Part shown: positions 39,019-53,150 of the stretch, piece by piece | Layout: each line of letters opens with the position of its first letter | How positions within the stretch are numbered: the first letter of the stretch is position 1 | DNA from: Faecalibacterium prausnitzii | GTDB lineage: Bacteria > Bacillota > Clostridia > Oscillospirales > Ruminococcaceae | NCBI RefSeq assembly: GCF_003324185.1 | Contig: NZ_PXUP01000003.1 | Coordinates: 124,001 to 188,000 of the forward strand | Reading direction: 5' to 3' | Length of the DNA: 64,000 nucleotides | The notes under the pieces: generated by a model | Databases searched by the model: none | What the model saw: only the letters and a program-made list of their open reading frames with translations | Told to the model about the DNA's origin: nothing | Program-made: the position numbers and the translations under genes

Positions 39019-40680
<1,662 letters not shown>

Positions 40681-40734
40681 TAGCTGCCAAAAAACCGCAT
40701 GAATCCTTGATTTTTGGAGCGCGCAAAAGCGGAT

Positions 40735-40761
40735 TTACGCCAAACTTACGCCACTTACGCC
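40735..40761. repeat. Left-end TTACGCC iterons (putative integrase arm sites)
   Basis: Three copies of TTACGCC start at 40735, 40746 and 40755, 55-81 bp inside attL. The same word is repeated five times near the right end. Confidence 0.6.
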
Positions 40762-40790
40762 AAAAATCAAAGCGCACTATAGGGTAACAG

Positions 40791-40826
40791 AATCGGCACC
40801 CGCTGAAAAGCGGGTGCCGATTTTTT
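40791..40826 (+). terminator. Terminator inside the left end of the element
   Basis: A 13-bp stem ATCGGCACCCGCT / AGCGGGTGCCGAT followed by T6. It replaces the chromosomal terminator that insertion has moved away from groEL. Confidence 0.85.
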
Positions 40827-40953
40827 GTGTCTAGGGGATTTGAAGACTCATGAAACCCACTGATGGATTCTGCGAGCGGCAGACTGTCAGCGGCTTTATT
40901 GTTGACGAAAAACAAAGGTAGGGATACAATAATAAAAAAGAAAGAAATACACT

Positions 40954-41067
40954 TTTGAGATCACGGCTGCTTTCTGCAACGAATGCGGCGGCGAAATGGG
41001 GATTCCCGGTCTGATGGACTATAACATAAAGGAGATCGACGAGCAGTACCATGCTATGCAGACATAA
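40954..41067 (+). pseudogene. Remnant of an MqsA/Panacea-type antitoxin zinc domain
   Basis: A 37-codon open stretch without a start codon reads FCNECGGEM followed by MDYNIKEIDEQYHAMQT and a stop. This resembles the zinc-ribbon and DYN...Y segment that begins the MqsA-like antitoxins, but the DNA-binding part is missing. A stop lies upstream in frame. The region 40827-41182 has no other gene that I can support. Confidence 0.4.
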
Positions 41068-41182
41068 AACCACACCAGAAAACTGCCAAATGCTTTGTCG
41101 TGATTGTAATCTCAAAAAAGGTGCGCAGGAATAGATACCAATAGGTATTTGGAAAAATATAGCACTTACGAGGAGGAACTAA

Positions 41183-42055
41183 TTGAAGAATATGTTTAAT
41201 ATCTACTATATCAATAACGAGAAAGCATCAGAAATTTCAATGTTATTTGATAATCAAATAGTAGAAAAAATCACTCGAATCAAGAATACAGAATTAGCAA
41301 TGGCTGGCGATGGCGATGTTACCACGAGTGCTGCTTCCAAAATTCCTGTTATCGGACAGTATTTACCAAGCATAGATCTGAATGGAAATTTATCTCATAA
41401 CAGGTCTAATCGAGTGGAAGATACTGTAAAAGTGGTAAGTTCTAAATCGACAATTCTTAAGCCCATTTATGAGAAAGCTAAAGAGGTACGTCGTTTAGAT
41501 GATAGCAAGGTTGGTAACTTGGTGAAAATTAAGGACGTTTACCTTACCGTTGTAAATTCCGATGATGTGATGGCTACCAAAGCACTGATGAGTGGCTTGG
41601 TAAATCAGGTTCCTGTTGAGGGAATTGGTAATATGAACTTCACATCTCTTATGGAAGTTATGTTTAAGGGATCTGCATATGTTCTTTGTGGTGAACTTCC
41701 ACATAGATTCGGTACTAATGAGCATATGATGCTCAAAATCCCTATGAGCGCTGAAAATGAGATGGAAAGCCAGTACAGTATTTCAGATATTGAGATTGGT
41801 AAAGTCACAGTGCTCGGTATTTATCGTGGAGAATTTGATCGTCGTGATGTTGAACGAAAAATCAATCGTATGATGGCACTGAATGATAGTGGAAAGAAGA
41901 ACCAGCAGGAGACAAACGATATTCAAGATAGCGGTATGGATATTGAGGATGGCGTTCGAGAAGAAGATAAAAATGGTATTCGAAATATTTCTCTTGCGCA
42001 AGGAAAAGTTCATTACATTGATGTCATTGCCATTATTCAAGACATCAATATTTAG
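41183..42055 (+). CDS. Uncharacterised protein, DUF6414-like
   Basis: 290 residues, TTG start with AGGAGG 6 nt upstream. The build suggests the DUF6414 type: an N-terminal INNEKASEISMLFDNQ segment, a Gly/Ala-poor linker containing KIPVIGQYLPSIDLNGNLSHN, a helical centre with SLMEVMFKGSAYVLCGELP, and a C-terminal beta region with VLGIYRGEFDRRDVE plus an acidic insertion. I am not certain of the family. Base composition is far lower in GC than groEL, so it was acquired separately. It ends 8 nt before an AAA+ gene and probably works with it. Confidence 0.65.
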   Translation: MKNMFNIYYINNEKASEISMLFDNQIVEKITRIKNTELAMAGDGDVTTSAASKIPVIGQYLPSIDLNGNLSHNRSNRVEDTVKVVSSKSTILKPIYEKAKEVRRLDDSKVGNLVKIKDVYLTVVNSDDVMATKALMSGLVNQVPVEGIGNMNFTSLMEVMFKGSAYVLCGELPHRFGTNEHMMLKIPMSAENEMESQYSISDIEIGKVTVLGIYRGEFDRRDVERKINRMMALNDSGKKNQQETNDIQDSGMDIEDGVREEDKNGIRNISLAQGKVHYIDVIAIIQDINI

Positions 42056-42063
42056 GTGATATC

Positions 42064-42621
42064 ATGGACAGAGTAAGCATTTACGAATATGACAGAAAGA
42101 ACAGAGAGCGTGTAGTTAAAGCGATTGAGGAAGCAGGTGGACAAATATTAAGTTGGTCTTTTTTTGCTAAGGATCAATCGAAATTTGAACTTCCACCAGG
42201 TACTCTTTCAGTCTTTATTGACTTATCTTCTTTGTTTTATAATGAAGATCGTGCAGACGCTCTCATCGCTCCAGCTGAACTCTTGTTGAATATAATTCAA
42301 CAAGAGCAATCCGTTGCACTGTATGTTATCATTGAACGCCAATACAGCAAACAAGTACGAGATTTACTGTATTATAAGATTGATGAAGTTCTTGACCTTG
42401 AGGATTTTCTTGAAATTGAAAAAGACCCAATTCAAAATATCGTTGATATTGATCAATCTGATTTTGAAAATGTTTTGGCCTATCTAAATCAAAATCTTTT
42501 TGGAAATGAGCTTTTCAAAAAACGTCTGAAAGAGGAATTGACGAAATATAGACTGTTTAACCGGATTGGGCAACAGCCGATTTTTTTCCGTATTGATATG
42601 TGGTGCTTCCGGTATCGGTAA
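42064..42621 (+). CDS. N-terminal part of a frameshifted AAA+ ATPase
   Basis: 185 residues, with TAGGTGAT before the ATG. Residues 1-165 form an alpha/beta domain (VFIDLSSLFYNEDRADALIAPAELLLNIIQQE, given here only as a landmark near residues 50-80) without an obvious catalytic motif. It then continues into LFGNELFKKRLKEEL, the segment that normally precedes an AAA module. The last residues (after about 172) are out of frame. The natural continuation, SVLICGASGIGKTEV, is in the next frame, starting at a T7 run near 42580. The gene and the next ORF are therefore probably one 388-residue protein broken by a one-base indel, or joined by frameshifting. Confidence 0.6.
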   Translation: MDRVSIYEYDRKNRERVVKAIEEAGGQILSWSFFAKDQSKFELPPGTLSVFIDLSSLFYNEDRADALIAPAELLLNIIQQEQSVALYVIIERQYSKQVRDLLYYKIDEVLDLEDFLEIEKDPIQNIVDIDQSDFENVLAYLNQNLFGNELFKKRLKEELTKYRLFNRIGQQPIFFRIDMWCFRYR

Positions 42622-43228
42622 AACAGAAGTTGCAAGATTGCTTCATCAAAAGTTAGCCGCAGATGAACCTATGATAAAGATCAATTTCGGCAATTACAGT
42701 GCTCAAGATGCTCTTAACAGTTTGATTGGTAGCCCACGAGGTTATATAGGCAGTAATAAAGGTGAATTGCCCGACAAGCTTATGCGTAGCCGAAGCAAGG
42801 TAATTCTTATAGATGAGTTTGAAAAAGCAAGTAAGGCTGTTTATAACTTTTTCTTACAGTTGCTTGAAGAAGGAAAATTCACAGATTCTTTGGGACGTGA
42901 ATATGACTTAGAAAAATACATCATAATTTTTACTTCCAATATGCCTAAAGAACGAATAGGTGAATTTTTGCCACCGGAACTGCGTTCAAGATTTAGTTAT
43001 AAATGTGCATTTTGGCCGCTTTCCACACAAGAAAAAGAACAATATGTAGCTTTTAAGAGCGAGCACTATTTAGAAAAAATCAAACATGAGTGTCCTGGGC
43101 TTGACAGCACGTTACAGGCTTCAGATATAATAGATATTGATGTTTCACGCTATTCTAATATGCGTGATATCAATAGTGAAATAATGCGTCAAATTACCGA
43201 CGCATTGTATGCGCAGATCGTTAAGTAG
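42566..43228 (+). CDS. AAA+ ATPase module (ClpB/ClpX-like), C-terminal part of the split gene
   Basis: 220 residues in the +1 frame relative to the preceding ORF. Walker A is GASGIGKT, the pore/linker region reads IGSPRGYIGSNKGELPDKL, Walker B is KVILIDEFEKAS, and sensor 1 is IIFTSNMP. An arginine finger candidate lies in LPPELRSRFSYK. This is the fold of Clp AAA-2 modules but a single ring with a short C-terminal domain. No independent ribosome site is evident at the TTG, which supports the frameshift view. Low GC and position after the DUF6414-like gene suggest a two-protein module, perhaps defensive. Confidence 0.65.
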   Translation: MGNSRFFSVLICGASGIGKTEVARLLHQKLAADEPMIKINFGNYSAQDALNSLIGSPRGYIGSNKGELPDKLMRSRSKVILIDEFEKASKAVYNFFLQLLEEGKFTDSLGREYDLEKYIIIFTSNMPKERIGEFLPPELRSRFSYKCAFWPLSTQEKEQYVAFKSEHYLEKIKHECPGLDSTLQASDIIDIDVSRYSNMRDINSEIMRQITDALYAQIVK

Positions 43229-43276
43229 AAACAAAATATCAGCCGAGCAGCTAACCACTGCCCGGCTGATGCTAAA

Positions 43277-43655
43277 TTATGCGAAAATCAATTCTGCGTT
43301 GATGAATTCCTCCGCACGGTTGCGGATGTTGTTCATGGCTCCGATCCATGCAAGTTGATTCTGTGCTTTCAGAGACTCGTTGATTCCCTCTTTCTCTGCC
43401 AGATGCGTTACAAGCAAGTCGAGCTTATTTCGAGCCTGAGTATCAATGTCAGAGAGATAGCCGTACAGCTTGCCGCTGAGAAGCAGATCAGAGTAGGATA
43501 ATAGGACGGTATTCTCTGAGGTACTGCTGGTGCTTTCTGCCCCAGATACCGATGGTGTGTACTTCTTCCTCTGGGATGACCAGACACGGCAGATAGTATT
43601 CTCCATGTAGCTCATACCAAAGACCGTTGCTGTTATCGTAAATGTATTTTTCCAT
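43277..43655 (-). pseudogene. tnpV: TnpV-type transposon protein, frameshifted
   Basis: The minus strand starts with ATG at 43655 and reads MEKYIYDNSNGLWYEL onward to EYRPIILL, then stops. The rest of the protein (YSDLLLSGKLYGYLSDID, then LAWIGAMNNIRNRAEEFI) lies in a different frame, with the shift near 43490-43510. Both halves match the TnpV family found on clostridial mobilisable transposons. It marks an older transposon footprint in the island. Confidence 0.7.
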
Positions 43656-43892
43656 ATTGCAAACCTCTATGTATCATTTATTTACAGTAGTACCGAGTGG
43701 CTTTGAGGTGAATCAGCTAGCGGAGGTTGCGTTGTAGCCAGTGGCTACAAAATGGCTACAGAATTCTTAGAGACGCTGCGGATAGCTTAAAATGCGTGGA
43801 ATATGTGGATGAAAAGCGCACTATCAGTGCATATTATCATGAGAAATTAAGGTCTGGCGCTCGAATGGCAATGATGTAATGATTGTCGAAAA

Positions 43893-44234
43893 ATGAGAAG
43901 CCATATTACGACGATTAACAGACTATATGTCCAATTGGAACGTATTATTCATGGGAATCATAGCGAAGATGCGCAGAAATGCTTTAGAGAAGTAACAAAA
44001 GCCGCAGATTGTGCGATAAATTTGTGCTATTTCTTTGAAAACTGGAAAGAAAAAGATATCACAGACAATAAGTATGTTACTGACTACTATAAGAAATATA
44101 AGTCTGCGCTTTGGGCAAGAGCAATGTTTTTAAACATTCAAGAAAGTAAATTAAACATGATTCTATATAAAAATATGAGTTTAGATGAAATTCGCAAAGA
44201 GTTGAATCCGGAGAAAAAAGATAACGTGAACTAA
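43893..44234 (+). CDS. Hypothetical protein
   Basis: 113 residues, mainly helical and charged, with low GC like the other acquired parts. No family recognised: RLYVQLERIIHGN and a C-terminal MSLDEIRKELNPEKK stand out only as helices. No strong ribosome site precedes the ATG, so the start is uncertain. The 237 bp before it hold no intact gene, only a 35-codon open tail ending at 43879 and a small inverted repeat (TAGCCA / TGGCTA). Confidence 0.45.
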   Translation: MRSHITTINRLYVQLERIIHGNHSEDAQKCFREVTKAADCAINLCYFFENWKEKDITDNKYVTDYYKKYKSALWARAMFLNIQESKLNMILYKNMSLDEIRKELNPEKKDNVN

Positions 44235-44250
44235 CGGATAATAGACGGCA

Positions 44251-44297
44251 AACAGCCGCCCAGCAAGACCATAGCGGTCAACTGTTGGGCGGCTGTT
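44251..44297. terminator. Terminator between the hypothetical gene and hicB
   Basis: A stem AACAGCCGCCCA / TGGGCGGCTGTT around a 23-nt loop between convergent genes; it can serve both. Confidence 0.65.
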
Positions 44298-44310
44298 GTT
44301 GTACTTATAC

Positions 44311-44688
44311 TTATGCCAGATGGAGTTTCTCTTTCAGCGCATCCTGAAGGACGCCGGAAAAGTTGATGTGTGCCGATTCGGCGGCATCGTTGAGCCAGCC
44401 GGGAATGGAAAGGGTTTTCTTTACGGGTCTGTACCGCTTTTCGTACTCTTCCATATCGAAAGGCACCATCACTACAAAATCTTCCGGGTCAACGTGGAGC
44501 GCAGAAGGGACAGAAGGCTCCGGGCAGACTTTGCAATCTTCCAGCATAAGGCCGATGGCATCCTGTGCCATGCGGACAGCTTCGTCCATGGTATCGCCTT
44601 GGGTGAAGCAGCCCTCAATATCGGGGATCTCAACAGAGTACCCGGTTTCTTCCGGGTGAAAAATTGCAGGATAGAAAATAGCGTTCAT
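44311..44688 (-). CDS. hicB: Antitoxin HicB
   Basis: 125 residues. The N-terminal HicB fold reads YPAIFHPEETGYSVEIPDIEGCFTQGDT with the usual degenerate RNase-H-like core. The C-terminal 45 residues (SIPGWLNDAAESAHINFSGVLQDAL) form a ribbon-helix-helix-type DNA-binding domain that lets it repress the operon. It neutralises HicA. It lies 140 nt downstream of hicA on the same strand, a wider gap than usual for this pair, with AAAGGTGAGG before the start. Confidence 0.9.
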   Translation of the reverse strand: MNAIFYPAIFHPEETGYSVEIPDIEGCFTQGDTMDEAVRMAQDAIGLMLEDCKVCPEPSVPSALHVDPEDFVVMVPFDMEEYEKRYRPVKKTLSIPGWLNDAAESAHINFSGVLQDALKEKLHLA

Positions 44689-44828
44689 AATGTGACCTCA
44701 CCTTTTATAATTCAACAAACAATCAATGTACCTTCACTTAACAGGCCTACATTATTGGTTGGAAATTGTAGAATAGTCTATGCAGTGCTTCGCAGTTTCA
44801 GAATATGAAGTCTACAATCATCATATTC

Positions 44829-45020
44829 TTACTTTTTGAGTCCGGCTAATTTGAGAATGTTTTTCTCGGTACCGGGCTTCAGATCCTTTGCGTGAAATGG
44901 AACGACAGTGGTTTTGTTGGTAGTTGGGTTATGGTACTTGTAGTGTGACCCATTTGCACTGACTAAAACAAAGCCGTTCTGCTCCAGCAAGCGAATCATT
45001 TGCTTGGGAGTCATCGGCAT
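44829..45020 (-). CDS. hicA: mRNA interferase toxin HicA
   Basis: 63 residues with the double-stranded-RNA-binding-like fold of HicA. The conserved catalytic histidine lies in NGSHYKYHN, and the family start MTPKQMIRLLEQNGF is present. It cleaves mRNA when HicB is lost. AAGGAGG precedes the ATG at 45020; an ATG three codons in is possible. The promoter just upstream has two TACGTA palindromes, probably the HicB operator. Confidence 0.9.
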   Translation of the reverse strand: MPMTPKQMIRLLEQNGFVLVSANGSHYKYHNPTTNKTTVVPFHAKDLKPGTEKNILKLAGLKK

Positions 45021-45057
45021 GGCGGGTGCCCCTCCTTTCTTTCAGGATTACAGTTTT

Positions 45058-45086
45058 ATTGTATACGTATTTTACGTATTTGTCAA
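45058..45086 (-). promoter_or_regulatory. Promoter and probable HicB operator of hicAB
   Basis: On the minus strand, TTGACA, 17 bp and TACAAT. Two TACGTA palindromes (45064-45069 and 45073-45078) fill the spacer 9 bp apart, well placed for autorepression. Confidence 0.75.
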
Positions 45087-45096
45087 GAGGGCAAAT

Positions 45097-45140
45097 AAGC
45101 CGCCCAGCGACCTTTACGGTCTCGCTGGGCGGCTTATTTT
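45097..45140. terminator. Terminator downstream of the XRE regulator
   Basis: A stem AAGCCGCCCAGCG / CGCTGGGCGGCTT that includes the stop codon of the regulator gene, with T-rich flanks on both sides. Confidence 0.65.
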
Positions 45141-45436
45141 TTGCGTTTCCAGAGCAAATATTCTTCGTAGCGGTGCATCTCGTTTTGTTCTTCTTCGGTC
45201 AGGCGCTGGCGCTGTTTGCGGGCTTCGTCCGAGGGGTCGATGTCGGTCAGACCCAGCAGGTAGTCGGCGGAGGTGCCGTAGTACCTGCAAATGGCAATCA
45301 ACATCTCGTGGTTTGGGGAACTCTTTTCATGCTCCCAACTGCGGATGGTAGATGTTGCAACATTAAGGGCTTTGGCGAGTTCTTCCTGCGTTTGGTTATT
45401 CCAATCTCGCAGGTCGGCTAATCGTGCTCCAATCAT
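45134..45436 (-). CDS. XRE-family transcriptional regulator, divergent from the R-M-like operon
   Basis: 100 residues from the ATG with AAGGCGGG upstream; an ATG eight codons earlier lacks a ribosome site. The helix-turn-helix covers residues 4-60 (RLADLRDWNNQTQEELAKALN, a landmark of the first helices, then STIRSWEHEKSSPN), followed by a charged helical tail. Four copies of an AAAGTGATA-like half-site lie between it and the restriction-modification genes. Small XRE proteins often act as controller proteins of such systems, so this is the likely timer or repressor of the neighbouring operon and of itself. Confidence 0.85.
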   Translation of the reverse strand: MIGARLADLRDWNNQTQEELAKALNVATSTIRSWEHEKSSPNHEMLIAICRYYGTSADYLLGLTDIDPSDEARKQRQRLTEEEQNEMHRYEEYLLWKRKK

Positions 45437-45476
45437 CTTTTTCCCGCCTTTCTTTGCCATAAGTATAGGTGTTTCA

Positions 45477-45577
45477 TATCACTTTTGGTAAAAAACGCCG
45501 AGAATCTTGTTAATTTGCCTTGAAAGTGATAAGATACTTGTTAGTATAGGCTGAAAGTGCTAAGAATATTATCACTT
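45477..45577. promoter_or_regulatory. Operator array for the XRE regulator
   Basis: Half-sites: TATCACTTT (45477-45485), AAAGTGATA (45523-45531), AAAGTGCTA (45554-45562) and TATCACTT (45570-45577). The first overlaps the regulator's own TATACT -10 region; the last two form an inverted pair with a 7-bp gap just before the methylase gene. Confidence 0.6.
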
Positions 45578-45613
45578 CCGCCGCAACGCTAAGGCAAAGC
45601 GAGGAAATCCCCG

Positions 45614-47557
45614 TTGGAACAACTGATCGACTTTCACGCACCGGAAGTGCAGGCGGTGCTGGATACACTTCTAAAAGACCGCTCCACCGGCAAAAACATC
45701 ATCTGGGCAACCGACCCGCCGGAGGAGCTGCAAACGGTAATGTACGAGCCTGTCACGGATAGATCCCAGATCACCACCCAGCAGCTCGGGCTGACCCACT
45801 ACGAGGTGGTGCTACCCCGGATGATGAAGCAGACCGACACCCAGCAGCAGCGCACCCGCAAAAAAGGCGAAGTGTTCAGCCCCGCATGGGTCTGCAACAA
45901 GATGAACAACGCACTGGATGCTGACTGGTTCGGTGCGCTGGGGGCAGGGGAGAGCGCCGGGCAGTTCACGGTGGAACTGCCCCAAGGCTGGCAGACGGTG
46001 GAAACGCCGGTGCAGTTCCCGGCCTGCAAGGGCAGGACCCCGGCATGGGTGCAGTATGTACAGAGCCGCCGCTTGGAGGTGACCTGCGGTGAAGCCCCCT
46101 TTCTGGCGTCTCGGTACGATGCCGCCACCGGCGAGATGATCCCGGTAGCCCGGCGCATTGGTATTCTGGACCGCAAGCTGCGGGTAGTAAGCGAGAACGC
46201 CGCCACAGAGGACGAGTGGCGCAAATATGCCACCCATGCGGTGCAGTCCACCTACGGCTATGAGTATCAGGGCGATAACCTTTTGCTGGCGAGGGTTAAC
46301 CTGCTGCTGACCTATGCAGAGCATCTGCAAGCCCGCTGGCAGCGCAAACCCACAAAAGAAGAGTTACAGCCTATCGCCACCATCATCAGCTGGAACCTGT
46401 GGCAAATGGACGGCTTGCACCTGTCTGTGCCCGGCGGCAAGCCCCAGCCGGAGGCAGAACAGCTTGACCTCTTTTCCATGTTCGGGGCGGCAGAGCCGCA
46501 GCCGCCCACGGTATCCTGCAAAGTGAAAAACTGGCGCAAGGGCAGCCATGGAGCTGCCCAGAACTTTGAAACCATTCAGGAAGGGAGTACCAGCATGAAG
46601 TTTGATTATGTCATCGGAAACCCGCCGTATCAGATAAGTGATGGCGGTGCCGGCGTAAGTGCAACGCCTATCTATAATCGTTTTATCGAAGCAATCAAAA
46701 CTACACATCCCGGCGCAATTTGCTTGATTATTCCTGCAAAATGGTACTCCGGCGGTAAAGGACTAGATAAGTTCAGAGAGGAAATGCTAGGAGATAGACA
46801 TATTTCAACATTGGTTGATTATTCTAATTCGCTAGATGTTTTTCCGAATGTAGATGTTGCAGGTGGCGTTTGCTATTTTGTCTGGAAAGAAGCATATAAC
46901 GGTAAGTGTAAGTATACAAACTATCGTAATGGAAAAGCTACAACAGCATACAGAGATTTGAATGAGTTTCAAACATTTATTCGCTATCCAGTTGCATCCG
47001 AAATAGTCAAAAAAGTAAAAGAAGATGGAGAATTAACACTGGATAAAGTGGTTTCCAGCAGAAAACCATTTGGACTTGCAACAACAGCAAAGCCAATGAA
47101 AACCGGTGATATCACACTACGATACAATGGAGGATGTGGCCCATATAAAAGAACCGAAATAAGGGCTGGAGCAGAAATGATTGACCAATGGAAAATTATC
47201 ATTTCTCGTCTTACGGCAGAACACGCAGGACAACCAGCCAAGGATGGAAAGTACCGTGTACTTTCAACGATGGAACTTTTGAAGCCGGGCGAAATATGTT
47301 CCGAAACGTATCTTGTGGCGGGAGCATTTGATTCAAAAGAAGAAGCAACCAACTATATGGATTACTTAAAGACGCAATTTGTTCGATTTCTTATCCTACA
47401 AATTGCAATGACGCAGCAGTTAAGCAAAGCGTCATTCGCATTTGTTCCTTGTCAGGATTTTACAAGAAAATGGACAGACAAACAACTGTTTGAAAAATAT
47501 GATTTGTCTAGTGAAGAAGTAAACTATATTCAAGGAATGATAAAGGAGATGGCATAA
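45614..47557 (+). CDS. Eco57I-type N6-adenine DNA methylase / specificity protein
   Basis: 647 residues, TTG start with GAGG about 10 nt upstream. A motif-X-like GEVFSPAWVCNKMN (about 85-98) and a motif-I-like EVTCGEAPFLASRYD (about 155-169) precede the catalytic motif IV NPPY (336-339). The C-terminal half looks like a target-recognition region. GC content drops sharply close to NPPY: codons before about 328 are chromosome-like, those after are AT-rich. An in-frame ATG at 46595 with an AGGAAGGGAG site marks that boundary and might start a shorter product. The stop overlaps the next gene by one base. It would modify adenine in a specific site, protecting host DNA from the partner gene. Confidence 0.82.
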   Translation: MEQLIDFHAPEVQAVLDTLLKDRSTGKNIIWATDPPEELQTVMYEPVTDRSQITTQQLGLTHYEVVLPRMMKQTDTQQQRTRKKGEVFSPAWVCNKMNNALDADWFGALGAGESAGQFTVELPQGWQTVETPVQFPACKGRTPAWVQYVQSRRLEVTCGEAPFLASRYDAATGEMIPVARRIGILDRKLRVVSENAATEDEWRKYATHAVQSTYGYEYQGDNLLLARVNLLLTYAEHLQARWQRKPTKEELQPIATIISWNLWQMDGLHLSVPGGKPQPEAEQLDLFSMFGAAEPQPPTVSCKVKNWRKGSHGAAQNFETIQEGSTSMKFDYVIGNPPYQISDGGAGVSATPIYNRFIEAIKTTHPGAICLIIPAKWYSGGKGLDKFREEMLGDRHISTLVDYSNSLDVFPNVDVAGGVCYFVWKEAYNGKCKYTNYRNGKATTAYRDLNEFQTFIRYPVASEIVKKVKEDGELTLDKVVSSRKPFGLATTAKPMKTGDITLRYNGGCGPYKRTEIRAGAEMIDQWKIIISRLTAEHAGQPAKDGKYRVLSTMELLKPGEICSETYLVAGAFDSKEEATNYMDYLKTQFVRFLILQIAMTQQLSKASFAFVPCQDFTRKWTDKQLFEKYDLSSEEVNYIQGMIKEMA

Positions 47558-50500
47558 TGGCTGGCATAACCCTGCGCACTGCCCGGCAGGTGGTGCCCAT
47601 GATCTACGCCTATACCACCCCGGAAATTGCCCGGCACAACGGCTGGACAAAGATCGGCTACACCGAGCAATCGGTGGACAAACGCCTGAAACAGCAGACC
47701 CACACCGCCGATGTGCTGTTCCACGAGGAGTGGCGGGGCAATGCCGTCTACGATGACGGCAGCGGCGAGGTGTTCACCGACCACGATTTCCACGCTTACC
47801 TCCGCAAGCTGAACGTGGAGAACGACCGCAAAAACGAGTGGTTCCATCTGGATGGGCAGCAGTCCCGGCGATATTTTCAGGATTTCCGCATGAACCGGGG
47901 CCGGGTGCAGCTGGATGCCGCCATCGCCTACACCCTGCGGGAAGAACAGGCAAGGGCTGTCCGCAACACCAAGACCTATTACCAGAGTCACCCCGGCGGG
48001 GAATACCTCTGGAACGCCAAGCCCCGCTTTGGCAAGACCCTTTCTGTCTACGATTTCTGCAAGCAGGTCGATGCACAGACGGTGCTCATCGTTACCAACC
48101 GCCCAGCCATCGCCAATAGCTGGTACAGCGACTATGTGCGCTTTCTGGGCAGGGAGTCCGGCTATCTGTTCGTCAGTCATGTGGATGCCCTTGCCGGGCA
48201 ACCCCATGTGCTGGACGAGCAAGGCTATCTGGATGCCGCCGCACAGGGCGAGGAGCTGTATAAGCGCATTGAGTTCGTCAGCCTGCAGGACATGAAAGGC
48301 TCCAAGTATTTCGGCGGCGAGTATGACAAGCTGCGCCACCTGACTGAGCTGAACTGGGATGTGCTGGTCATCGACGAAGCCCACGAGGGCGTGGACACCT
48401 ACAAGACCGACCTTGCCTTTGACCGCATCCGCCGCCGCTTCACGCTGCACCTGTCCGGCACGCCCTTCAAGGCACTGGCGAACGACAAGTTTGCCGGGGA
48501 TGCCATCTTCAACTGGACCTACGCCGACGAGCAGGCCGCCAAGCGGAACTGGCAGGGCGCACCGGGGCAGCAGAACCCCTACGCAAACCTCCCCATGCTC
48601 AACCTCTATACCTACCAGATGTCCGAAATCATCCGGGACGAGATCCAGCAGGGCGTGGAGATCGATGGCGAAACGCAGGAATTTGCCTTTGACCTGAACG
48701 AGTTCTTCAAGGTAAAGCCCAGCGGCAGCTTTGAGCACGAGGCCGAGGTAGACCGCTTTCTGGATGCCATGACCACCCAGAACAAATTTCCGTTTTCCAC
48801 CCCGGAACTGCGTGCCGAGCTGAAGCATACCTTCTGGCTGCTGAACCGGGTGGACAGTGCCAGAGCGCTGGCGAAAAAGCTGCAGGCGCACCCGGTATTC
48901 CGGGACTATGAGGTGATCCTTGCCGCCGGTGACGGCAAGCTGGACGACACGGATGAGAACCAGAAGAGCTTTGACCGGGTAAAAGCTGCCATCGCCCACC
49001 ACGAAAAGACCATCACCCTGTCGGTGGGGCAGCTGACCACCGGTGTCACCATCCCGGAGTGGTCGGCGGTGCTGATGCTCTCCAACCTGAAAAGCCCGGC
49101 GCTGTATATGCAGGCGGCGTTCCGTGCCCAGAACCCCTGCCTTTTCCACAAAAACGGCACCTTCCGCCGCAAAGAGAACGCCTATGTGTTCGATTTTGAC
49201 CCCGCCCGCACCCTGCTGATCTACGAGCAGTTCGCCAACGATCTTTCACAGGACACCGCCAGCGGCAAGGGCGACACCGAGGAGCGCAAGGCGCACATCC
49301 AGAATCTGCTCAACTTCTTCCCGGTCATCGGCGAGGACGAGGAAGGGGAGATGATCCCGCTGGATGCAGAAAAAGTCCTCAGCATCCCCCGGAAGATCAA
49401 GTCCAAAGAAGTGGTGCGGATGGGTTTCCAGAGCAATTTTTTGTTCCAGAACATTTCCAACGTGTTCAGTGCCCCGCAGGAGGTGCTGGACATTCTGCAA
49501 AACTTCCAGCCCATCAGCGAGGCAAAGGCAAAGCCCATCCAGATCACCCCGGACACCGGCGCAGACCTCTCCCTGAACGACAAGGGCGAGGTGGATTTGG
49601 ATGAGGGCTACGTCATCGGCAAGGCGGCAGATGTATTCGGGGCGAAAATTTACGAGAGCACCCCCGCACTGGACACCGCCCTGCAAGACCTGACCGATGC
49701 CCCGGCTCCTGCCAAAGAAGAGCATCTGGAACCCCTGAAAAAGAGTATCACCAAGGAGATCATCACCCCCATGGTGGAGCAGGCAAAGCAGGAGTATGGT
49801 CGGGACCTGAAGCTGTCCGACCAGAAGCGGTTTGAGAGCACCGCCAAAGCCAAGATGGACGTGGCGGTGAACAAGGTGGTGGACAACTACCGCATCGACC
49901 AGAGCCAGCTGGAGACCCAGCGCACCCAGCAGCTGCAAAGCTGCACCACTGCCCAGCAGCGCCAGCAGGTGAACCGGGAGTTCGACGCAAAGCAGCAGCA
50001 GAGCACCGCCGCCCTGATGGAGACGTTGCAATCCACCATCCAGCAGACGGCGCAGGAAATGCAGCAGACCATCGTGCGCACCGTGGAGACCAACCAGAAG
50101 GAGCAGGAGAAAAAGGGCTACGAGGACACCGTCCGTGGCCATCTCCGGGGCTTTTCCCGCACCATCCCGTCCTTTCTCATGGCCTACGGCGACGAGACCG
50201 TGACACTGGCAAACTTTGACCGGATCATCCCGGACAAGGTCTTTCAGGAGGTCACCAGCATCACGCTGGAGCAGTTCCGCTTTTTGCGGGACGGCGGACC
50301 GTACATCAACCAAGCCACCGGACAGGAGGAACACTTTGCAGGCCACCTGTTTGACCCGGTGGTGTTTGACGATTCGGTGAAGGAATTCCTGAACCTGAAG
50401 GTCAAGCTGGCGGATTACTTTGACGAGAGCCGCACCGAGGATATCTTCGATTACATCCCACCCCAGAAAACCAACCAGATCTTTACCCCTAAGTGGGTGG

Positions 50501-50865
50501 TGAAAAAGATGGTGGACCTGCTGGAACAGGAAAACCCCGGCTGCTTCGATGACCCCGGAAAAACCTTCCTGGACCCCTACATGAAGTCCGGCCTGTACAT
50601 TACGGAAATCGTCAAGCGCCTTTACCGCAGCGAGAAGATGCGGCAAGCCTTCCCGGACGATAACGCCCGGCTGGAACATATCTTTGCCAAGCAGGTCTAT
50701 GGGCTTGCCCCGACCGAGATCATCTACCGCATTGCCATCAGCTACATTCTGGGCTTTGCAAAGGATCACGGCATTACCGCCCACCATATCCGTCAGGCGG
50801 ATACGCTGGAATTCGCCAAGGCGGGCACCATGGAAAGGGAACTGGATAAGATTTTCAGAGATTGA
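47557..50865 (+). CDS. GIY-YIG nuclease / SF2 helicase / partial methylase fusion (restriction subunit)
   Basis: 1102 residues. Residues 15-100 form a GIY-YIG domain of the T5orf172/MUG113 type (IYAYTTPEIARHNGWTKIGYT). Residues 145-560 form an SF2 translocase: Walker A-like NAKPRFGKT (about 152-160), DEAHEG (about 273-278) and SGTPFKA. A helical Q-rich coiled coil runs about 740-850. The C-terminus has methylase motifs X (FTPKWVVKKMVDLL) and I (FLDPYMKSGL, about 1003-1012) but no NPPY. It probably translocates and cuts unmodified DNA with the upstream methylase as its partner. The start overlaps that gene's stop. GC is chromosome-like, unlike the methylase tail. Confidence 0.8.
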   Translation: MAGITLRTARQVVPMIYAYTTPEIARHNGWTKIGYTEQSVDKRLKQQTHTADVLFHEEWRGNAVYDDGSGEVFTDHDFHAYLRKLNVENDRKNEWFHLDGQQSRRYFQDFRMNRGRVQLDAAIAYTLREEQARAVRNTKTYYQSHPGGEYLWNAKPRFGKTLSVYDFCKQVDAQTVLIVTNRPAIANSWYSDYVRFLGRESGYLFVSHVDALAGQPHVLDEQGYLDAAAQGEELYKRIEFVSLQDMKGSKYFGGEYDKLRHLTELNWDVLVIDEAHEGVDTYKTDLAFDRIRRRFTLHLSGTPFKALANDKFAGDAIFNWTYADEQAAKRNWQGAPGQQNPYANLPMLNLYTYQMSEIIRDEIQQGVEIDGETQEFAFDLNEFFKVKPSGSFEHEAEVDRFLDAMTTQNKFPFSTPELRAELKHTFWLLNRVDSARALAKKLQAHPVFRDYEVILAAGDGKLDDTDENQKSFDRVKAAIAHHEKTITLSVGQLTTGVTIPEWSAVLMLSNLKSPALYMQAAFRAQNPCLFHKNGTFRRKENAYVFDFDPARTLLIYEQFANDLSQDTASGKGDTEERKAHIQNLLNFFPVIGEDEEGEMIPLDAEKVLSIPRKIKSKEVVRMGFQSNFLFQNISNVFSAPQEVLDILQNFQPISEAKAKPIQITPDTGADLSLNDKGEVDLDEGYVIGKAADVFGAKIYESTPALDTALQDLTDAPAPAKEEHLEPLKKSITKEIITPMVEQAKQEYGRDLKLSDQKRFESTAKAKMDVAVNKVVDNYRIDQSQLETQRTQQLQSCTTAQQRQQVNREFDAKQQQSTAALMETLQSTIQQTAQEMQQTIVRTVETNQKEQEKKGYEDTVRGHLRGFSRTIPSFLMAYGDETVTLANFDRIIPDKVFQEVTSITLEQFRFLRDGGPYINQATGQEEHFAGHLFDPVVFDDSVKEFLNLKVKLADYFDESRTEDIFDYIPPQKTNQIFTPKWVVKKMVDLLEQENPGCFDDPGKTFLDPYMKSGLYITEIVKRLYRSEKMRQAFPDDNARLEHIFAKQVYGLAPTEIIYRIAISYILGFAKDHGITAHHIRQADTLEFAKAGTMERELDKIFRD

Positions 50866-50888
50866 CCAATAGAATACGGCATAAAACC

Positions 50889-50928
50889 AAAGGCGGCTGT
50901 CTGCATGGGTGCAGATGGCCGCCTTTTT
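50889..50928 (+). terminator. Terminator of the R-M-like operon
   Basis: AAAGGCGGC...TCTGC / GCAGA...GCCGCCTTT hairpin followed by T5. Confidence 0.85.
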
Positions 50929-50955
50929 GCTATTTAAAAATATTTTGAAATAGCC

Positions 50956-50984
50956 TTGTATAAAGAGTACATGTGTGATACAAT
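50956..50984 (+). promoter_or_regulatory. Promoter of sdpR-sdpI
   Basis: TTGTAT, a 17-bp spacer and TACAAT, overlapping the operator palindrome. Confidence 0.7.
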
Positions 50985-51012
50985 CTATTTAAAGATTGTT
51001 TGAAATAGATTG
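50981..51012. promoter_or_regulatory. SdpR-type operator
   Basis: A perfect 10-bp inverted repeat CAATCTATTT / AAATAGATTG separated by 12 bp, covering the -10 region and start site; expected autorepression site of the following ArsR-type regulator. Confidence 0.6.
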
Positions 51013-51024
51013 GAGCGTGACCGC

Positions 51025-51294
51025 TTGGCTATAAATGAAGTGTTAGCTGCTTTAGCAGACGATACACGTCGAAAAATTCTGCTAAAGTTACAGGAAGGTA
51101 AAATAAGTTCAGGAGATTTAGCAATCTCATTGGATATGACACCACAGGCGTTGTCATACCATTTATCGAAGCTAAAAAAGGCAGACTTGATTTATGAAAC
51201 TCGATACAAAAATTATATTTATTACGAATTGAATTTATCTATCCTTGATGAAACAATTATGTGGATCAGTAATTTGCGTGGAGGTCAACAATGA
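51025..51294 (+). CDS. sdpR: ArsR-family autorepressor, SdpR-like
   Basis: 89 residues from TTG at 51025, which has GGAG 9 nt upstream and aligns with the usual MNxVFKAL-type start; a TTG at 51010 is less well placed. Winged helix: ALADDTRRKILLKLQEGKIS, then the recognition helix TPQALSYHLSKLKKADLI. No metal-binding cysteines are present, which fits SdpR rather than ArsR/SmtB sensors. In Bacillus, SdpR represses its operon until SdpI sequesters it at the membrane. The stop overlaps the sdpI start (ATGA). Confidence 0.87.
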   Translation: MAINEVLAALADDTRRKILLKLQEGKISSGDLAISLDMTPQALSYHLSKLKKADLIYETRYKNYIYYELNLSILDETIMWISNLRGGQQ

Positions 51295-51947
51295 AAAAGA
51301 AAATGGTCGCTTTTTACAGTCTCATGTTTTTACCATTGGTAGTTGTCCTGATTGCCTTACAGTTCTTGCCAGAGCAAATCCCGGCTCATTATGATATGAA
51401 TAATCAAGTGACACGTTGGGGTAGCAAATATGAAACACTAATTTTCCCTGTAATTACAGTTTTATTTGGTTATTTTATGCTTGCCATGGCTAAGTTGTCC
51501 TCAAAACAAGAAGAAAATGGAAGTAATAACAAAAATGTATGTATTGTGACTGGAATAGCATCTCTTGCACTTTTCAACGCTATGACAGTCTATTTTTTGT
51601 ATGCTGATTTCAATTCGATTGAAAATCTGTCTTCCATTGCACTTGATTTGAATCAACTTGTATTTGGACTGCTTGGCGTTGCAATGATTATATTAGGTAA
51701 CATTATGCCAAAACTACGAATGAACTCAGTTGTAGGACTGAGAAGCGTATGGAGTATGAAAAATGAAACAACATGGAAAAAAGGCCAACGCTTTGGAGGT
51801 ATTTCATTTATCGTAAGTGGTATTATTATAATCATGGTATGCTTTTTGACGAAAGGCATTTCTTGTTTTTGGTGGACAATGAGCATCGTAGCAATTCTTT
51901 TGATTGTTGACACCTATTATACCTACACATTATCAAAAAAATACTAA
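51291..51947 (+). CDS. sdpI: SdpI-family immunity membrane protein
   Basis: 218 residues with about six membrane helices. The family landmarks are FLPEQIPAHYDMNNQVTRWG near the N-terminus and MPKLRMNSVVGLRSVWSMKN after the fourth helix. In Bacillus, SdpI protects against the SdpC killing peptide and signals through SdpR. No sdpABC toxin genes are in the window, so here it is probably orphan immunity against a rival's toxin. Coupled to sdpR; AT-rich, hence acquired. Confidence 0.9.
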   Translation: MKKKMVAFYSLMFLPLVVVLIALQFLPEQIPAHYDMNNQVTRWGSKYETLIFPVITVLFGYFMLAMAKLSSKQEENGSNNKNVCIVTGIASLALFNAMTVYFLYADFNSIENLSSIALDLNQLVFGLLGVAMIILGNIMPKLRMNSVVGLRSVWSMKNETTWKKGQRFGGISFIVSGIIIIMVCFLTKGISCFWWTMSIVAILLIVDTYYTYTLSKKY

Positions 51948-51987
51948 TGCTGTAATCCGTGCCTCGTGAGATACTTTGTATCTATGA

Positions 51988-52026
51988 ACACTCTGCAAGA
52001 CTGAAAAATCTTGCAGGGTGTTTTCT
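51988..52026 (+). terminator. Terminator of sdpRI
   Basis: ACACTCTGCAAGA / TCTTGCAGGGTGT stem (one bulge or mismatch) followed by a T-rich tract. Confidence 0.75.
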
Positions 52027-52123
52027 TATGCTCTGATATATATGTAACCAGCCCCGAAACCGGGGCTGAAGATTTCTCCGAAATAACGGATGCGGAAGCC
52101 CAGCAGCTGGGCTTTCCCTTCTG

Positions 52124-52903
52124 ATGGACAGCGGTTTCAAGCAAAACACCATAGGAATCCTGCAAAGCGTTGTCAGACCGGCGTTTGAGATGGCGGTAGA
52201 GGATGACATCATCCGCAAGAATCCATTTAAGTTCAAGCTGTCGGACGTTGTGCCAAAGGACGCTTATGTGCGCAATGCCCTGACCAGAGAACAGCAGGAG
52301 AAATATCTGCAATTCGTTCAGGACTATGGCGGCAACTATTATGATGATATCGTCATTCTTATGGGAACCGGCTTGCGTGTGAGTGAGTTGTATGGCCTGA
52401 CACGAGCAGATATCGACTTTGAACGGCACTGTATCCATGTCCGGCGGCAGCTTTGCCGGACGGCTGAAAAGCCCTACTTTGTCACACCGCCGAAAACAAA
52501 AAGCGGTATCCGCAATGTTCCCATGACAGATACCGTTTGTGCAGCGTTGCGGCGTGTAGTAAAAGCTAGAGCGTCCACGAAAGTGGAAGCGCTGGTAGAT
52601 GGTTGCAGCGGATTTCTCTTTCTGGACAAATCCGGGATGCCGAAGGTGGCAATGCACTTGGAAAACTATATGCGTGGCGTGCAGGGAAAGTTTGAGAAGG
52701 CGTACAGCAAACCTGTTCCGCGCATTACACCTCATGTGCTGCGACACACCTTCTGCACCAATGTTCAGCAGGCCGGGCTGGATGTAAAAAGCCTGCAATA
52801 CCTGGTGGGACACTCCAATGCCAGTGTGACGCTGGATGTCTACACGCACAGCAGCTTTGAATCGGTTGAAAGAGCCTTTGAACAGATCGCCGGCAACCTG
52901 TGA
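52124..52903 (+). CDS. int: Tyrosine integrase, truncated at the N-terminus
   Basis: 259 residues. The catalytic set is complete: R85 (GTGLRVSELY), a lysine in PPKTKSG, H204 and R207 (HVLRHTF), H230 (GHSN) and the nucleophile Y240. Only the end of the core-binding domain is present (NTIGILQSVVRPAFEMAVEDD); full-length Tn916-type integrases have about 130-150 more residues carrying the arm-binding domain. No in-frame continuation exists upstream. A foreign open tail ending EAQQLGFPF with a stop at about 52118-52123 abuts it, so a deletion or recombination removed the 5' part. The enzyme is probably unable to bind arm sites, freezing the element. Confidence 0.82.
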   Translation: MDSGFKQNTIGILQSVVRPAFEMAVEDDIIRKNPFKFKLSDVVPKDAYVRNALTREQQEKYLQFVQDYGGNYYDDIVILMGTGLRVSELYGLTRADIDFERHCIHVRRQLCRTAEKPYFVTPPKTKSGIRNVPMTDTVCAALRRVVKARASTKVEALVDGCSGFLFLDKSGMPKVAMHLENYMRGVQGKFEKAYSKPVPRITPHVLRHTFCTNVQQAGLDVKSLQYLVGHSNASVTLDVYTHSSFESVERAFEQIAGNL

Positions 52904-52928
52904 TTTTCGACGCATGAAGCGGAATTGC

Positions 52929-52983
52929 TTACGCCGAAACTTACGCCGAAACTTACGCCAAAACTTACGCCAAAACTTACGCC
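52929..52983. repeat. Right-end TTACGCC iterons (putative integrase arm sites)
   Basis: Five copies of TTACGCC at exact 12-bp intervals (52929, 52941, 52953, 52965, 52977), separated by AAAC-type spacers. The same word is iterated at the left end, which supports a role in integration or excision. Confidence 0.65.
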
Positions 52984-53134
52984 AATCACCCGGTAAGTGG
53001 CGTAGATTTGTGTAGAAAAGCGTGGATCGTGCAAAAACGGAGAATCTGGAAAAATCGGCTTGTGGCCTTGATAATTCTACAAAAGTCTACGTTTCCCGAT
53101 ATTCGTGATTCGGCTCCAAAAGTGTGGTTTGGAA

Positions 53135-53150
53135 GGGCGGCATGTACTAA
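53135..53150. other. attR core of the groEL-3'-end element
   Basis: GGGCGGCATGTACTAA, identical to the last 16 bases of groEL. It lies 232 bp after the integrase stop, and normal chromosomal sequence follows. Confidence 0.8.

Follow-up and report, generated by a model that had tools for sequence, protein, structure and literature searches.

A DrdVI-like split restriction-modification operon in Faecalibacterium prausnitzii with an extra methylase half on its motor-nuclease protein

Introduction

Two adjacent genes of the gut bacterium Faecalibacterium prausnitzii, here called A and B, together encode a methylase, a GIY-YIG-type nuclease, an SF2 translocase and a second, partial methylase. They lie in a stretch of 64,000 nucleotides from contig NZ_PXUP01000003.1 (the window, to which all positions refer). 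The locus raises the questions of whether the pair is a defence system of a new kind or a known one joined in another order, and of which methylase part works with which. The original prediction, made from the DNA sequence alone, had favoured an undescribed defence system with its methylase motifs divided between the two proteins, so that these would modify DNA as a complex or the second site would recognise methylation state.

Type ISP enzymes are single chains that carry an Mrr-like PD-(D/E)XK nuclease, a motor, a methylase and a target recognition domain (TRD), with no separate N-half. Type I restriction-modification (R-M) systems have a separate HsdS specificity subunit, Type III systems pair a beta-class Mod with Res, and in BREX and DISARM the methylase is adjoined by PglZ, BrxC or DISARM core genes. 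The motif I glycine and the motif II acidic residue of methylases are their SAM residues. M1-2.DrdVI is listed as a 6mA, Type IIG enzyme with the motif GCAGCC, and has been cloned and expressed in E. coli ER2796 (PMC6430315). The accessible part of the description of M1-M2.MaeIV (Methanococcus aeolicus) presents a cloned, DrdVI-like split methylase/RM assigned to m6A in GCACY, and the accessible part of a 2016 survey notes Type IIG-like permutations of endonuclease, methylase and translocase (PMC4752239).

The operon and its modules

An ORF check of the window confirmed that A (647 aa) and B (1102 aa) are both open on the plus strand (Table 1). They overlap by one base, in the TAATG at 47555-47559, and A starts with a TTG preceded by GAGG. 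We divided the system into the modules N (long N1 or short N2), C (NPPY and TRD), GIY, HEL, CC (the linker) and XI. The divergent HTH_3 gene is a possible controller of the operon, a role that we only infer; phmmer matched it strongly only in copies of the window (L001, L032 and L112) and weakly in five places elsewhere. Scans of the window with Rfam, at the gathering threshold, and for tRNAs returned no match.

Table 1. Features of the operon and of the element around it, with positions in the window
Feature	Position	Strand	Evidence
Left 16-bp direct repeat (att-like), groEL 3' end	40665..40680		sequence comparison
Divergent HTH_3 regulator, upstream of A	45134..45460	-	Pfam HTH_3 2.3e-12
Gene A, predicted complete m6A methyltransferase and target recognition domain	45614..47557	+	Pfam, PADLOC, AF2, VIA
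N module of A (residues 1-315; motif X, motif I variant, motif II); M1.DrdVI counterpart	45614..46558	+	
Motif IV GNPPY of A (residues 335-339)	46616..46630	+	translation, alignment
Exchanged specificity module of A (residues 341-641)	46634..47536	+	DNA and protein comparison, close copies
Gene B, restriction/translocation subunit with extra methylase N-half	47557..50865	+	Pfam, DrdVI homology
GIY-YIG-type (T5orf172/MUG113) nuclease domain of B	47557..47916	+	Pfam
SF2 translocase domain of B (AKPRFGKT, DEAHEG, SGTPF, AFRAQ)	47917..49506	+	Pfam ResIII
Linker of B: Q-rich stretch and conserved RGFSRTIPSFLMAYGD segment	49507..50406	+	coiled coil by eye
XI, extra methylase N-half of B; counterpart of M2.DrdVI N-terminus	50407..50862	+	blastp, alignment
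Tyrosine integrase, right end of element	52124..52903	+	Pfam Phage_integrase 4e-28
Right 16-bp direct repeat (att-like)	53135..53150		sequence comparison

Gene A is predicted to encode a complete methylase

Pfam identified A as an Eco57I methylase (PF07669, E 1.1e-21), and with its GNPPY this agrees with what had been read in the first gene. PADLOC models matched residues 13-310 (PDLC03390), 327-646 (PDLC03375) and 318-646 (PDLC03626), with MTase_II models matching both halves of the protein. The PADLOC model REase_MTase_IIG, 1359 positions long, matched the end of A with its positions 1000-1359 and the motor of B with its positions 537-629, which gave the first hint that A and B are parts of a single larger layout. 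In addition to NPPY, A has motif X (KKGEVFSP), a motif I variant (LEVTCGEAPFL, residues 154-164) and motif II (YGYE). The claim that one set of methylase motifs is split across the two proteins did not hold, since all four of these motifs stand in A itself and XI is an extra N-half.

An AlphaFold (AF2) model of A, made with an alignment of 84 natural rows (A2; 83 of the 114 listed rows and the window), reached pLDDT 89.8 and pTM 0.90. Its best Foldseek match was CamA (E 3.4e-13). VIA-align 2 placed the model on CamA (Z 22.6, 419 aligned, 6.0 A, model residues 67-631), on MmeI (Z 21.0, 435 aligned, 6.6 A, model residues 6-643) and on the Type ISP enzymes LlaGI (Z 18.8) and LlaBIII (Z 18.6). The alignment of most of A with CamA and MmeI, both complete m6A methylases, points to N and C forming, in one chain, a complete methylase with its TRD; A is predicted to be one complete methylase fold, not half a methylase. 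By sequence, A found only unrelated, chance-level matches in the PDB, and NCBIfam gave only matches below cut-off, including A against the BREX methylase (12.4 bits, cut-off 500).

Gene B carries a nuclease, a motor and an extra methylase half

B matched T5orf172 (2.1e-5), MUG113 (7.6e-6) and ResIII (1.8e-10), all of which pass the Pfam cut-off. With a Q-rich stretch seen by eye in the linker and with XI, which has motif X and DxxxKSG and no NPPY, this bears out the earlier reading of gene two as GIY-YIG nuclease, SF2 motor and methylase segment. Across the 13 sequences of alignment A1, the nuclease residues Y17, K32, G34, R43, H79 and E94 are invariant, and the translocase motif residues are invariant or almost so. 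No match to B alone was found in the PDB by sequence, and a B profile gave a weak match to UvrB in the motor region (1e-4). At least 570 relatives of B were found in genome contigs: among the matches listed, 570 of 591 pattern-matched stretches encode such relatives, so the domain combination of B is not due to chance.

Two loci (L082 and L092) encode a B that extends C-terminally past XI by roughly 110-130 aa, the extensions being alike by eye. Other relatives are in contigs labelled Methanocorpusculum and Methanosphaera (L066 and L109), through either archaeal transfer or misbinning of the contigs.

Linkage and rearrangement of the modules among relatives

We searched all frames of 121 loci for the modules, with profiles refined on the same loci. 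A motor or nuclease frame was present in 113 loci, 35 of which had the commonest layout, the three-gene N1 + C + B. The layout of the window, fused N1-C followed by B, was present in 24 of the 113, plus seven cut at an edge, and N2 + C + B in four. The numbers refer to loci and do not count separate events, because several loci (L001, L008, L032 and L112, for instance) overlap or are nearly the same and many run into contig ends. Pediococcus and Enterococcus have N + B-C, with C fused to XI; the DrdVI clade has M1 / XI-C / R, and Arthrobacter has N + B + C. The C module hence occurs separately, fused to N or fused to XI.

N, C and B were all present in 59 of 61 loci with enough flank (those of L032-L121 with at least 2.5 kb on each side of B, including the window copies L032 and L112). 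The co-occurrence proposed earlier as a check of the two genes was therefore found. The two exceptions were L060, with a shortened B and no C, and L109, with no N found and C in pieces. Where the C gene lies upstream of B, the gap between them has a median of 0 and is at most 60 bp in 78 of 80 loci. A midpoint-rooted FastTree tree of motor domains, in which 51 of 117 sequences are drawn and support values are omitted, groups the loci of DrdVI order with four frames from truncated contigs. The single-chain layouts and those of the window type make up another group, with L023 outside both.

Individual loci vary further. Two tandem C genes, 94% identical, stand ahead of B in L105 (6973-9139), and in L087 the GIY-YIG domain is apart from the motor.

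Comparison with DrdVI and other systems

The plasmid pDrdVI of Deinococcus wulumuqiensis carries a homologue of the system. In blastp comparisons, C matched M2.DrdVI (40%, E 1e-85), N matched M1.DrdVI (30%, E 9e-9), B matched R.DrdVI over residues 14-672 (31%, E 3e-80) and XI matched the N-terminus of M2.DrdVI (30%, E 6e-13). Every module therefore has a homologue, with M1 corresponding to N, M2 to XI-C, and R to GIY-YIG, SF2 and linker. The two systems share the order of their genes, methylase genes first and motor-nuclease last, and the fusion of translocase to GIY-YIG nuclease (Pfam; HMM matches to R.DrdVI). They differ in where the chain is divided: DrdVI is split M1 / XI-C / R, whereas the window system is split N-C / R-XI. 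Its N is also longer, with GEA in motif I where M1.DrdVI has GSG. The accessible parts of the DrdVI literature do not define the family by such split points. Since each module is homologous and the order differs, the window system is a known type of system in rearranged form: it belongs to the DrdVI-like family, with a different joining order that puts XI on the motor-nuclease protein. The linkage, the module fusions in several orders and the DrdVI homology give good support to the idea that the pair is R-M-like and works as a complex. The label of an undescribed defence system finds no support, as a DrdVI-like family has been reported (PMC6430315) and permutations had been noted in 2016 (PMC4752239, accessible part). 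The exact layout, N-C with GIY-SF2-XI, was not found described in the accessible parts of the literature searched, PMC1564403, PMC10853773 and PMC4618763 among them; REBASE, outside this search, probably lists many such genes.

MaeIV resembles the window system through the accessible account of it as a DrdVI-like split methylase/RM. The OspHL35III type, as described in the accessible part of the 2016 survey (PMC4752239), likewise combines a methylase/TRD protein, a translocase and a GIY-YIG nuclease around one recognition module; however, its translocase and GIY-YIG nuclease are separate proteins, and that part of the survey makes no mention of a second methylase half. The single-chain relatives share with LlaGI and LlaBIII of Type ISP the order of nuclease, SF2 motor, methylase and TRD, but the window system consists of two genes with a GIY-YIG-type domain, and Pfam found no Mrr/PD-(D/E)XK nuclease in A or B at E up to 1. 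A Res-like motor as in Type III is present in B, but A is Eco57I/CamA/MmeI-like with a C-terminal TRD. Methylase_S (HsdS) had no Pfam match in A, B or the ten neighbouring ORFs scanned, and no BREX or DISARM core gene was found by Pfam among those ten.

SAM residues and the pairing of the halves

We compared the two kinds of N-half at the SAM residues. N1 rows read LE(I/V)TCGEAP(Y/F) at motif I. The first glycine (G159 of A) is present in all 75 N rows with a letter there, and the second is replaced by alanine in 73 of the 75, a departure from the textbook GxG. The motif II acid is kept in 81 of 81 rows, as glutamate in 80 (E217 of A) and aspartate in one. XI has lysine for the first glycine (K1010) in 108 of 109 rows and alanine (A1051) at the usual acid position in 107 of 109, and keeps motif X (TP) and Asp1006 in all 109. 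Lacking the usual SAM residues, this extra half is apparently inactive, as far as sequence can tell; Lys1010 is nevertheless near-universal, and is conserved beyond the need of a mere relic. The division is alike in DrdVI, where motif I is EPACGSG in M1 and DPCTKSG in M2. Each NPPY residue of C is kept in 95 of 96 rows with a letter; searched as a whole motif, GNPPY was present in 91 of 109 matches to C, and 16 were without any such pattern.

Covariation between modules was measured over 67 loci, excluding the window copies L032 and L112, with 12 permutations. The z scores, uncontrolled for phylogeny, were 5.4 for N-C, 10.3 for XI-C, 3.7 for HEL-C, 21.4 for N-XI, 13.4 for N-HEL and 13.1 for XI-HEL, so that, with phylogeny included in the signal, an N-C contact was not favoured over XI-C. 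The fusion of XI to C in DrdVI, Enterococcus and Pediococcus suggests that XI may pair with C and not merely dock. A model of XI-C from L116, of low confidence in its XI part, was dropped, as its alignment (A3; 76 rows: 46 of 89 listed XI rows and the window, together with 29 of 47 C rows) had set XI rows over the C region. The genome of the window encodes a second strong Eco57I-type methylase domain in a 1252-aa frame (L002; G000:C52:38970-39623).

Exchange of the recognition module between close strains

Eight close copies were compared: the window, L032, L112 (a viral-collection contig) and L131-L135, of which L032 and L133 are the same in sequence. B is 97-100% identical among them, and A up to NPPY 95-100%, or 80-84% in pairs with the shorter frame of L134. 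After NPPY, identity of A fell to 30-38% in 16 of the 28 pairs and 56-69% in nine, and was 98-100% in three. DNA similarity to the window ends at 46633, the codon after NPPY, and returns at 47537 in L112, L131, L132 and L134, a span reaching to six residues short of the end of A; L133 and L135 align to the window right through this span. Low identity after NPPY with a constant B is the pattern of specificity module exchange, and by these comparisons close strains have exchanged the putative specificity module with little change in N or B. The position of the junction, directly after NPPY, suggests a route to enzymes of new specificity.

Proposed function and its alternatives

We have high confidence that the system is a DrdVI-like R-M system, and consider it probable that A and B are a split Type IIG pair of this family in which A modifies, B restricts and XI docks. 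With moderate confidence, A alone would be the modification enzyme: its N-half would bind SAM, and its C-half would supply NPPY and read the target sequence, so that A would add m6A to one short motif. The C-terminal methylase-like half of B would be its point of attachment to A. On meeting an unmethylated site, the complex would translocate DNA with the SF2 motor and cut it with the GIY-YIG domain, cleavage probably being driven by ATP. XI, which would have lost the usual mode of SAM binding, may dock the methylase/recognition part onto the motor, a role to which we give low confidence.

The pairing of the halves can be read otherwise. XI of B and the C-half of A might form the catalytic methylase, with N accessory and modification needing both proteins. 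Pediococcus, Enterococcus and the DrdVI clade do have XI and C on a single chain, the two covary more strongly than N and C (phylogeny uncontrolled), and N has the alanine in motif I; however, XI is without both the first glycine and the motif II acid, N keeps the acid throughout, and A models as a methylase on its own (pTM 0.90), and we judge this arrangement unlikely. We think it quite unlikely that C is shared by the two halves, modifying with N and, with the lysine-bearing XI, forming a reader blind to SAM that would license translocation and cutting; if true, partner switching would decide between modification and restriction. Methylation-independent or abortive defence, with the methylase parts as DNA sensors only, is very improbable: one of the two methylase N-halves is degenerate, and GIY-YIG and SF2 domains are generally known from other defence systems, but NPPY is kept in nearly all C rows, recognition modules are exchanged as in R-M systems, and m6A motifs are assigned to DrdVI (PMC6430315) and, in the accessible account, to MaeIV. 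An orphan methylase beside a decayed restriction gene would fit the decayed copy in one genome of the genus (G318); it is very improbable for the window, since neither frame is broken there, the eight close copies share 97-100% identity in B, and the motor and nuclease motifs are intact.

On the preferred reading of a split R-M system, the natural rearrangements are experiments that tell which pieces are separable, which travel together and where specificity swaps. The family is common, with its at least 570 relatives, yet in the literature found it is known from few methylome papers. What remains most interesting is the conserved, lysine-bearing pseudo-methylase half and the lineage-specific cutting and rejoining of the enzyme.

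An integrative element and its distribution

The operon lies inside an integrative element of about 12.5 kb (40665-53150) that begins at the stop codon of groEL (Cpn60). Five of the 2-kb bins between 40 and 53 kb have a G+C content of 39-50%, compared with about 55-67% to the left of the element and 58-61% to its right; at 59%, the bin that holds most of the B motor is not low. Empty sites were found in other genomes of the genus, where the flanks meet with an overlap of 16 bases in G309 and 17 in G303; the flank overlap is 21 bases in G306 and one in G318. The integrase, the repeats and the empty sites are signs of mobility. B matches occur in 12 of the 31 genomes of the genus, that of the window included, and take in the DrdVI-order branch (G306 and G312) and the remnant in G318. 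B also has relatives among plasmids (83 records, 32 of them with a coverage of B of at least 80%), phages (five records, one at that coverage) and viral contigs (10).

The groEL site has a wider spacing with B inside in G297, G308, G319 and G321, and about 9 kb without a B match in G296. The decayed copy in G318 (L138) has N and the start of a different C that runs into the tail of XI, most of B being lost. Within the island of the window, a HicB-like antitoxin gene lies on the minus strand at 44311-44688. An AAA_2 (ClpB-like) gene at 42064-43228 is spread over two overlapping frames. Seven consecutive T (42581-42587) lie near the apparent break, which may come from mutation, sequencing error or a programmed shift; a homologue in G426 is a single frame of 395 aa.
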